Source: Bacillus sp. NP157
GTDB taxonomy: Bacteria > Pseudomonadota > Gammaproteobacteria > Xanthomonadales > Rhodanobacteraceae
DNA length: 64,000 bases
Assembly: GCA_018889975.1 (NCBI GenBank)
Contig: CP076546.1
Span: forward strand, 1,798,001-1,862,000
Direction of reading: 5' to 3'
Below the pieces are notes generated by a model. That model was not told the DNA's origin and did not search any database. It was given only the letters and a program-made list of their open reading frames with translations. The translations under genes and the position numbers were made by a program. Of this stretch, positions 23,111 through 24,725 are shown piece after piece. Positions within the stretch are counted from its first letter, which is position 1. Each line of letters begins with the position of its first letter.

Positions 23111-23270
23111 GTAGGAGCGCGCCTGCGCGCGAATGGCCAACAGTGCGTAGATGATGGAACTCGATCCGCAGACCCGTACAAACGCCTTTGACTCATATCG
23201 ACGTGGTGATTCTGGGCGCTGGTACCTGCTGTGTTTAGGCAATCCCATTCGCGCGCACGCGCGCTCCTAC
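23111..23270. repeat. REP inverted pair upstream of the IS110 element
   Basis: A plus-strand REP (23111-23132) and an inverted copy with one change, A for G at the loop (23249-23270), frame a 116-nt spacer with no recognisable feature. Confidence 0.88.
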
Positions 23271-23334
23271 AAGTGCGGGAAAGCCTGCCCGCGGCCTAGC
23301 CTGACGAAGCGGCTTTCGTAGCAACTGTGTCCCG

Positions 23335-24261
23335 TCAGCCCATCGCAGCCAGCTCGTCCCGCATCCGGGCGTTGAGGATGACGATCAGCTTGTGCATGAC
23401 GGCGATCAGGGCGACGCGCTTTAGCTTTCCGCGGGTCACCAGGCCCTCGTAATACGGCTTCAGGATCGGATCATGGCGACTCGCCGACAGGGCCGACATG
23501 TAGAGCATCGCCCGGGGCCTGGAGCGTCCGCCCCAGGTCGATTGCTTGCCACGGAAGACGCCACTGTCGCAGTTGATCGGCGCTACGCCGACGAGACTGG
23601 CGATTTGTTTACGACCGAGATGGCCCAGTTCGGGCAGGTCACAGATCATCGACGCGACCATGCCCGGCCCGACGCCTTTCATCGTGGCGGCAACCCTTGC
23701 TTGCGGCGTGTCCTTGATCAGCCGGCCGATCACCGCATCGATCCGGCGTAGCGCGTTTTCCAGGTAGTCGATGTGCGCCTCGAGATCCTCGCGCAGGGTC
23801 TTGTCGACGACCTGGCGGCGGCGCTGTTTTTCCGCCGTGAGATTCTGGACCAGATGATCGCGCCGGGCCTTGTACTGCTGCAGCGTGGCCATTTCTTCGC
23901 TCGGCGGCTGGAACGGCACCAGCTCCATCACGCTGGCCATGTGGGCCAGAACGCGGGCGTCGATCCGGTCCGTCTTGGCCAGTTGGCTCTTGGAGCGGGC
24001 GAAATAGCGGACCAGGCGCGGGTTGATCCGGCGCACTGGCAGGCCGGCGGCGTGCAGCGCCGCGAGGGCGCTTTTCTCGTATCCACCCGTCGCTTCCAAT
24101 ACGACCTGGGCCGGATGGTGGGGCGCCAACCACGCCGCCAGGGCTTCCCAGCCGGCAGCCCCGTTGGCGAATCGTTGGGTCTCGCGGTGGTTGAACACCG
24201 CCACGTCCAGATGGGCCTTGCTGACGTCCACACCTGCACCGATGCCGATCATGCCAATCAT
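23335..24261 (-). CDS. IS110-family transposase (bridge recombinase)
   Basis: The 308-residue protein has an N-terminal RuvC-like DEDD domain. The first Asp is in IGAGVDVSKAHLDVAVF, the Glu in VVLEATGGYEKSAL, and the Asp pair in AKTDRIDARVLAHMA. A coiled middle (about residues 120-200) leads to the C-terminal Tnp domain (VGVAPINCDSGVFRGKQSTWGG), whose Ser is the expected nucleophile. All catalytic positions are present, so it appears active. I chose ATG 24261; ATG 24252 is also possible. The longer upstream frame is the guide RNA region and lacks conserved protein features. Confidence 0.95.
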   Translation of the reverse strand: MIGMIGIGAGVDVSKAHLDVAVFNHRETQRFANGAAGWEALAAWLAPHHPAQVVLEATGGYEKSALAALHAAGLPVRRINPRLVRYFARSKSQLAKTDRIDARVLAHMASVMELVPFQPPSEEMATLQQYKARRDHLVQNLTAEKQRRRQVVDKTLREDLEAHIDYLENALRRIDAVIGRLIKDTPQARVAATMKGVGPGMVASMICDLPELGHLGRKQIASLVGVAPINCDSGVFRGKQSTWGGRSRPRAMLYMSALSASRHDPILKPYYEGLVTRGKLKRVALIAVMHKLIVILNARMRDELAAMG

Positions 24262-24299
24262 GGCGATCTCCGCTAGCCTAGGAGTGTCGAGAGCCCTTC

Positions 24300-24445
24300 T
24301 CGCGTAGCCCAGCCTTATTTCCGAGCGCTTACTCGGGCAACTGTTCGGGCGTCTAGCGAAAAGATCCGGCGTGGCGACCCTGCTACGACACGATCGTGCA
24401 GATCCGGGAGCGTAACGGTCGACCACGCCGGCTCTCGGCACCTAC
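24300..24445 (-). ncRNA. Candidate bridge RNA of the IS110 element
   Basis: The transposase leader folds into two internal-loop hairpins. The first (24368-24429) is closed by GGCGTGG/CCACGCC and carries CGCTCC (24407-24412) and TCGTAG (24383-24388). These match the left and right halves of the REP target around CT. The second (24307-24350) is closed by GCCCG/TGGGC with an inner CCGAG/CTCGG hairpin. It carries ACAGTTGC (24337-24344) and AAATAAG (24314-24320), which match the element's own two ends: GCAACTGT at 23321-23328, and CTTATTT read on the minus strand at the right end. Order and layout are those of IS621-type bridge RNAs. The outer ends are approximate. Confidence 0.85.
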
Positions 24446-24469
24446 TTTGGACCGATCGGGACAAATAAG

Positions 24470-24487
24470 GAGCGCGCCTGCGCGCGA
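24470..24487 (+). repeat. Right part of the REP interrupted by the IS
   Basis: GAGCGCGCCTGCGCGCGA continues the GTAG at 23318-23321. The following AATCGAAAGCATGGCGGCG is the same extension that follows the REP at 27569-27590. Confidence 0.88.
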
Positions 24488-24520: not shown

Positions 24521-24725
24521 GTGGCGGCGAGGGTGGCAGGCGGAAGAAGCCCGCAGGGGGCCGGCCACGATGGCCGGCCGTTTCTGCCGAGACAGGAGTC
24601 GAGTCAGAAACCGCCGCCCGGCACCCGGTGCGCGGCCGCAGGCCAATAAGGAAACGGGCTGCGGAGCAGCCCCTCCCTGTCGCACGCCAGAACGCTGTCT
24701 GAGCAGCGAGGGTAGGCGCCGAGGG
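24521..24725 (+). repeat. Dispersed structured repeat, type A copy 2
   Basis: This copy is nearly identical to 3831-4036. The internal hairpin here is GTTTCTG (24580-24586) with CAGAAAC (24605-24611), both arms changed together relative to copy 1. The right-end arm CGAGGGTAGGCGCCGAGGG is present, but the left arm is replaced by REP plus GCATGGCGGCGTAGCCGC. The tail to 24785 resembles the tail of the other copies. No gene is supported in 24470-24814. Confidence 0.85.

Follow-up and report, generated by a model that had tools for sequence, protein, structure and literature searches.

A REP-inserted IS110-group element with a predicted guide-bearing bridge RNA leader and an antisense match to the Rfam small RNA sX15

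The 64-kb stretch of DNA analyzed here (the window) very probably carries an IS110-group bridge-recombinase element on its minus strand, inserted in a REP that its own predicted guide RNA matches. The leader of the transposase gene was also found to match, on the opposite strand, the Rfam small RNA family sX15 (RF02234), which an earlier reading of the leader had missed. We propose, at a probability of roughly 45%, that the bridge RNA locus of this gammaproteobacterial IS110 clade is a two-way switch: the excised circle would make the guide and the integrated copy would make full-length antisense sX15, which would sequester or tune both the guide and the transposase mRNA.

Element boundaries, copies, and recombinase

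Comparison of the two copies present in the genome fixed the ends and core of the element, and the following features were annotated.

23322 to 24469, minus strand: IS110-group insertion sequence (the flanks differ between the two identical copies, and each copy restores the REP ...GCGCGCTC-CT-ACG...)
24468 to 24469, minus strand: left core dinucleotide CT (copies compared at their junctions)
23320 to 23321, minus strand: right core dinucleotide CT, the target copy (copies compared at their junctions)
24457 to 24463, minus strand: subterminal inverted repeat of 7 bp, left arm (TGTCCCG; 6 nt separate it from the left end)
23328 to 23334, minus strand: subterminal inverted repeat of 7 bp, right arm (CGGGACA; likewise 6 nt away from the right end)
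23335 to 24261, minus strand: transposase/bridge recombinase with DEDD and Transposase_20 domains (ATG at 24261, stop at 23335, 308 codons)

With one core counted, the element measures 1148 bp and splits the REP at the core CT (GCGCGCTC / CT / ACG). The boundaries given in the preliminary description (23318 to 24487) were slightly too wide and took in some flanking sequence; it is the restored REPs that give 23322 to 24469. The second copy, at 2116121 to 2117272 of the 4.88-Mb genome, is identical across the 1152 bases compared and likewise splits a REP at CT, with the same junctions; the genome holds these two copies only. Noncoding sequence amounts to about 208 nt upstream of the transposase gene at the left end and about 13 nt at the right end, which is the layout of the IS110 group. 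Subterminal inverted repeats have been described as 2 to 3 bp long in the IS110 group and 7 to 17 bp long in the IS1111 group (PMC11208160); the 7-bp TGTCCCG/CGGGACA repeat just reaches the minimum length given for the IS1111 group, yet the RNA sits in the left end. By eye, the ends of relatives seem to show similar short inverted repeats, such as TGTCTT/AAGACA.

The transposase reading frame is intact, and both of its domains exceed the curated cutoffs (PF01548, DEDD_Tnp_IS110, E = 3.1e-30; PF02371, Transposase_20, E = 9.9e-13). At an E value of 0.001, its sole matches in the PDB were the recombinases of ISCro4 and IS621, with phmmer scores of 96.6 and 94.4 bits, respectively. The D, E, D..D, and S-G residues align with those of ISCro4 (residue roles and IS621 residue numbers are from PMC11208158). 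A transposase scan of the contigs of other genomes returned distant relatives only, with best segments of 28 to 51% identity, and three Pseudomonas species from that scan were carried into the later comparisons.

REPs are plentiful around the element. The window contains 21 intact REPs ending in GCGCTCCTAC, 20 of which continue with A and 1 with G; examples are those at 23120 (minus), 23261 (plus), 27538 (plus), and 27578 (minus). Several of them form inverted pairs, and the element adjoins two REPs. Elsewhere in the same genome (4521799 to 4522059), a single match to Y1_Tnp (PF01797) may mark a REP-associated transposase, which could account for the abundance of REPs. A GC-rich hairpin beside the element (24559 to 24584, minus strand) gave a subthreshold match to Rfam SorX (17.4 bits, against a gathering score of 46.6) that is probably due to chance.

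Guides of the bridge RNA and their matches

The leader had been described as holding a target loop (CGCTCC and TCGTAG) and a donor loop (ACAGTTGC and AAATAAG), and every one of these parts was located on the minus strand, as listed here.

24407 to 24412, minus strand: left target guide, CGCTC plus C (matches the REP left of the core and into it, in both copies)
24383 to 24388, minus strand: right target guide, TCGTAG, reading CTACGA (both insertions are at CTACG)
24337 to 24344, minus strand: left donor guide, ACAGTTGC (identical to the element's right end followed by the first base of the core)
24314 to 24320, minus strand: right donor guide, AAATAAG, reading CTTATTT (complement of the left end)

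The donor guides do match the two ends of the element over 8 and 7 nt, as had been reported. The claim that each target guide matches the REP over 6 nt holds for the right guide, TCGTAG; the left guide pairs through CGCTC and the first core base only, with mismatches at the next base outward (A versus G) and at the second core base (C versus T). The second core base is mismatched for both left guides of the window element, target and donor alike. Against the second copy, whose flanks had been singled out in advance as a check on the guides, the right target guide matches five of six bases (CTACGG); this sole other genomic copy is thus also inserted at the CT of a REP and agrees with the guides except for that one right-hand base. 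The target match scores 12 of 14, a value reached by 13 of 2000 shuffles of the target loop; this figure covers the target part alone, to which the 8- and 7-nt donor matches are additional. Genome-wide, just 46 of 676 GCGCTCCTAC sites continue with G and 630 with another base, and both insertions lie at this rare CTACG, the base that the right guide specifies. The probability of finding two of two there by chance is about 0.005, a figure that concerns two events only and a test framed after they had been seen.

Donor pairing could be followed across 51 distinct RNAs. Left ends reading CTTGT occur with ACAAG in 20 and with ATAAG in 1, and those reading CTTAT occur with ATAAG in 20, the remaining 10 RNAs being irregular or unread.

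Guides and targets among relatives

Relatives were collected in two ways. Of 197 genomes of the family, 10 gave RF02234 matches (over the cutoff in 8), at 23 loci, of which 16 entered the pooled set and 7 were cut or partial. A further search, in which no more than seven matches were scored for any genome, gave at least 129 matches: 16 were already included, 95 were added, and 18 were omitted, mostly as contig-edge or partial matches and at least one (in genome G431) by oversight. Of the resulting 111 loci (95 plus 16), 98 have a usable left target and 61 have both flanks; 8 were lost for want of a recognizable left end and 5 through an N or a contig edge in the left target. Among the 98, the 37 with no usable right flank comprise 24 with less than 950 nt after the RNA and 13 with 1500 nt but no recognized right end.

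Guides change together with targets between lineages. When the 21 distinct target loops, drawn from 21 genomes, are taken together, the guide-target matches sum to 267, while the permutation maximum was 239 and none of 20,000 permutations reached 267. For eight of the 21 loops, the best target of another class ties with the loop's own (five loops) or beats it (three, in G502, G455, and G404); in part, this is because classes were separated by their exact sequence, so that some of the other classes are close variants of one repeat. The window's own target loop scores 12 with its own target and 11 with the best other. The strength of this evidence lies in the whole set, single rows not all being clean. 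In addition, the fifth base of CTAC-type right targets equals the guide base at 13 of 16 loci, with all four bases covered, and the three exceptions all come from one genome (G123).

The targets themselves are diverse. The REP target of the window type (GTGCGCTC-CT-AC) is used in two genomes of the same genus. On the same scaffold, other elements sit in REP-like palindromes with the register shifted by three bases (GAAGCCG-CT-CCTAC), in attC-like sites (CCTAACGC-CT-GAATTAAG), or in further sequences that recur as the same flank at several copies. The label attC-like refers to the attC consensus, GCCTAAC ... GTTAGGC, as seen in the flanks. Insertions at attC-like sites with matching guides were seen at L167 to L170 (G421), L176, L177 (G475), L007 (G136), L188 (G502), and L179 (G439). 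Targeting of attC has been published for the IS1111 group (PMC11187229); the relatives found here in attC-like sites carry the RNA in the left end.

Not every scaffold is followed by a transposase match. At L006 (G062), L226 (G379), L229 (G427), L172 (G491), and L180 (G430), 1500 nt of downstream sequence gave no transposase match by tblastn, and these five would be decayed or orphan leaders. At L137 to L141 (G470), the flanks contain further element sequence, which suggests tandem copies or an assembly joint.

Fold of the bridge RNA and covariation

The predicted bridge RNA forms a three-way junction with the following parts.

24283 to 24441, minus strand: bridge RNA, comprising closing stem, target domain, and donor domain (folding and covariation; the ends are approximate and inferred)
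24430 to 24437, minus strand: closing stem P1, 5' arm, pairing with 24288 to 24295 (folding and covariation)
24288 to 24295, minus strand: closing stem P1, 3' arm (folding and covariation)
24423 to 24429, minus strand: target-domain stem, 5' arm, pairing with 24368 to 24374 (covariation)
24368 to 24374, minus strand: target-domain stem, 3' arm (covariation)
24356 to 24363, minus strand: donor-domain stem, 5' arm, pairing with 24296 to 24303 (covariation)
24296 to 24303, minus strand: donor-domain stem, 3' arm (covariation)

The two stems previously described as closing the loops are both present, but that picture was incomplete, as a third stem (24437-24430/24295-24288) encloses them. Whether the leader folds in the same way in homologues had been proposed as a check, and the same two guide loops were indeed recovered there with strong covariation. 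Among 47 distinct aligned RNAs, which take in four Pseudomonas loci (two with identical RNA), 92.6% of cells are paired and, of 41 pairs, 29 show double changes. Because the structure of four close sequences guided the alignment, these pair counts lean toward the sense structure. The covariance model built from those four sequences was used because MAFFT misaligned the target stems of distant members, and the L099 stretch, which is not a leader, was excluded. None of 500 shuffles reached any of five covariation measures, and controls with slid partners paired at 35 to 52%.

Which of the two strands is selected was approached from the same data. The sense helices contain 63 G-U and 35 A-C cells, and 26 rows have more G-U, 8 have more A-C, and 13 are tied; on this fitted alignment, the excess of G-U over A-C favors a sense RNA. 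Both strands fold into nearly identical shapes, and openness of the guide loops did not separate them (27 of 46; P = 0.10). Strand choice by folding energy was tried and dropped: among the seven sequences examined first, five folded better as the sense strand and the other two came within 0.5 kcal/mol, a lead that was reversed when minimum free energies were compared with composition shuffles for 27 thinned sequences, the antisense strand being ahead in 22 (P = 0.004). Folding energies thus do not settle which strand is under selection.

A predicted promoter at the circle junction

Two motifs at the ends of the element would be brought together by circularization.

23322 to 23324, minus strand: right-end TTG, which supplies the first half of a -35 hexamer (TTGCTT) that arises only when the ends are joined in the circle (motif also in relatives)
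24444 to 24449, minus strand: -10 hexamer of the bridge RNA on the sense strand, CAAAGT, at a spacing of 17 nt from the junction -35

As judged by motif, joining of the circle would be needed to complete a promoter, whose spacing would be 17 nt. The right end could be located for 25 distinct elements out of 51 distinct RNAs, and in 24 of them the joined ends have this form (TTGCTT or TTGACT, 17 nt, [TC]ANNNT); the sole exception, in G123, reads GAAAGT. In integrated copies, by comparison, the core is never immediately preceded by TTG (0 of 98), and 13 have two of the three letters, a comparison that is one base out of frame for the TTGACT lineages. A circle-junction promoter has been published for IS621, and the motif of the window element agrees with it (PMC11208160). 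An extra A at the right end (CAGTTGA-CT rather than CAGTTG-CT) was seen at L194 to L225 (G319, G351, G431, and G395) and L184 to L187 (G423), by which the junction -35 becomes TTGACT, nearer to consensus.

The antisense strand and sX15

On the opposite strand, the leader presents a second pair of features.

24286 to 24444, plus strand: match to RF02234 (sX15), exact antisense of the bridge RNA (102.5 bits, E = 8.8e-18)
24274 to 24279, plus strand: antisense -10 box, TAGCCT

The score of 102.5 bits compares with a gathering cutoff of 55 bits, and in the window six bases lie between TAGCCT and the first base of the sX15 match. A TANNNT box stands in the antisense reading 9 to 14 nt beyond the 3' end of the bridge RNA in 34 of 39 nonredundant elements (from 51 distinct RNAs, 46 of them with 75 nt downstream and 39 after removal of near duplicates), while all other offsets of the same 75 nt yielded three occurrences in total. 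The five elements that lack the box have either a partial transposase match (L175 and L182) or none (L226, L229, and L006); calling them decayed is an after-the-fact reading, because L172 and L180 keep the box and show no transposase match. The box recurs at the same distance in four Pseudomonas loci from three species and in 3 of 10 more distant relatives (L036, L062, and L049, two of which are AT richer). No -35 hexamer was apparent upstream of the antisense box.

When 11 further loci were scanned with cmscan, 10 matched RF02234, all of them opposite to the bridge RNA and 8 over the gathering score; three Pseudomonas species are among the matching loci, two of them over the gathering score, and L194 gave no match. 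The one-line Rfam description of sX15 names no function. The ends of sX15 were reportedly mapped by experiment. We found no link of sX15 to IS110 elements or bridge RNAs in the literature searched, a search that reached few subscription papers.

A precedent for an RNA at this position is provided by ISPpu9 of Pseudomonas putida, for which an antisense RNA of about 180 nt, Asr9, has been reported opposite the 5' untranslated region of tnp (PMC8450116). Asr9 was seen by RNA-seq and Northern blotting, its start was mapped with S1 nuclease, and it was described as very stable, its removal lowering tnp translation (PMC8450116). The small RNAs of ISPpu9 have also been mentioned as regulators (PMC11208160). 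Taken together, an antisense RNA opposite the bridge RNA is likely to be real and, by analogy with ISPpu9, an Asr9-like RNA may be a standard part of the clade.

Proposed mechanism and alternative explanations

From the anatomy of the element, its two copies, the correspondence of guides with target and donor, the covariation, the promoter-like motifs, and the antisense Rfam match, we infer how recombination, transcription of either strand, and an effect of the antisense RNA might fit together. The element would excise as a circle, in which the joined right and left ends would create a promoter that drives a bridge RNA of about 160 to 180 nt from the left end. This RNA would pair through one loop with the sequence around the core CT of the REP and through its second loop with that around the CT of the circle junction, whereupon the DEDD/serine recombinase would exchange strands and leave the element inserted in the REP. 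Integration would remove the -35 half supplied by the right end. In the integrated state, a promoter located immediately before the ribosome-binding site of the transposase gene would then produce the opposite-strand RNA that Rfam knows as sX15. By analogy with Asr9, this RNA would most likely pair with the bridge RNA or the transposase leader and modulate transposase translation, the supply of bridge RNA, or both.

The antisense half of this switch might instead be a by-product, in that the leader is nearly symmetric, Rfam filed the wrong strand, and the sense bridge RNA alone exists. The G-U excess of the sense helices, the nearly equal shapes of the two strands, and the lack of an apparent antisense -35 all fit that explanation. 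Rfam matches were antisense at all 10 matching further loci, which speaks against it, even if a model by construction finds one strand; the box is kept at its position and nearly absent from the other offsets; and an antisense RNA has been demonstrated experimentally at the same place in ISPpu9 (PMC8450116). We regard the by-product explanation as unlikely, though less so than the two alternatives that follow.

Doubt could also be cast on the guides or on the copy itself. At a time when bridge RNAs were not yet known, REP-directed insertion was attributed to transposases (PMC1525189), so that recognition might be achieved by the protein alone, the RNA matches being historical or regulatory; we consider this highly improbable given that guides move with targets, including through a register shift within the REP and a switch to attC-like sites, and given that both insertions in this genome fall at the rare CTACG specified by the guide (P of about 0.005 for the two events). 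That the window copy is a dead relic would suit an element present in two copies only and with an imperfect left target guide. Yet the copies are base identical at different sites, the reading frame is intact, and guides, junction promoter, and aligned catalytic residues are all in place, features that point to recent movement and make a relic improbable.

Relation to known elements and significance

The preliminary description had presented a new REP-directed member of the bridge recombinase family. Membership, with all parts in place, is borne out, but the novelty was overstated, as IS621, ISPpu9, ISPpu10, and ISPa11 are already in print (PMC1525189, PMC11208160); the element is a further member of the known REP-targeting IS110 elements with bridge RNAs, such as IS621 and ISPpu10. 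It shares with IS621 and ISCro4, as these have been described, the DEDD and serine recombinase, the predicted bridge RNA in the left end, the CT core, and, by motif, the circle-junction promoter (PMC11208160, PMC11208158), and with IS621 a REP target as well (PMC11208160). It differs from them in a protein that is only distantly similar, in the REP sequence, and in the antisense Rfam match; the closing stem around both loops is described here for the window element.

ISPpu9 resembles the window element in belonging to the IS110 family, in inserting into REPs, and in having an antisense small RNA opposite the tnp 5' untranslated region (PMC8450116), whereas its REP is a different one. The likeness to ISPpu9 itself is by description, and it is loci of three other Pseudomonas species that share the RNA scaffold, the RF02234 match, and the antisense box; ISPpu9 additionally has a downstream small RNA, Ssr9. 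ISPpu10 and ISPa11 are similar by description, as REP-specific IS110-family elements (PMC1525189) with predicted bridge RNAs (PMC11208160), but ISPa11 belongs to the IS1111 group and has its RNA downstream of tnp (PMC11187229). As for RF02234, the window leader agrees with sX15 in sequence and structure, the strand being opposite to that of the bridge RNA.

The relatives re-aim one RNA scaffold at REPs that differ in sequence and register, as well as at attC-like sites and further sequences that recur, so that the element and its relatives offer a ready-made set of natural guide-target pairs for bridge recombinases. The part worth following is the antisense reading of sX15. This link gives sX15 a testable role and suggests that bridge RNAs may have natural antisense regulators, which would bear on the mobility of these elements and on tools derived from them. 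If the two-way switch proposed here is true, sX15 would act as an anti-guide RNA that a programmable recombinase possesses by nature, and it would have been retained even as the guides turned to new sequences of the host.
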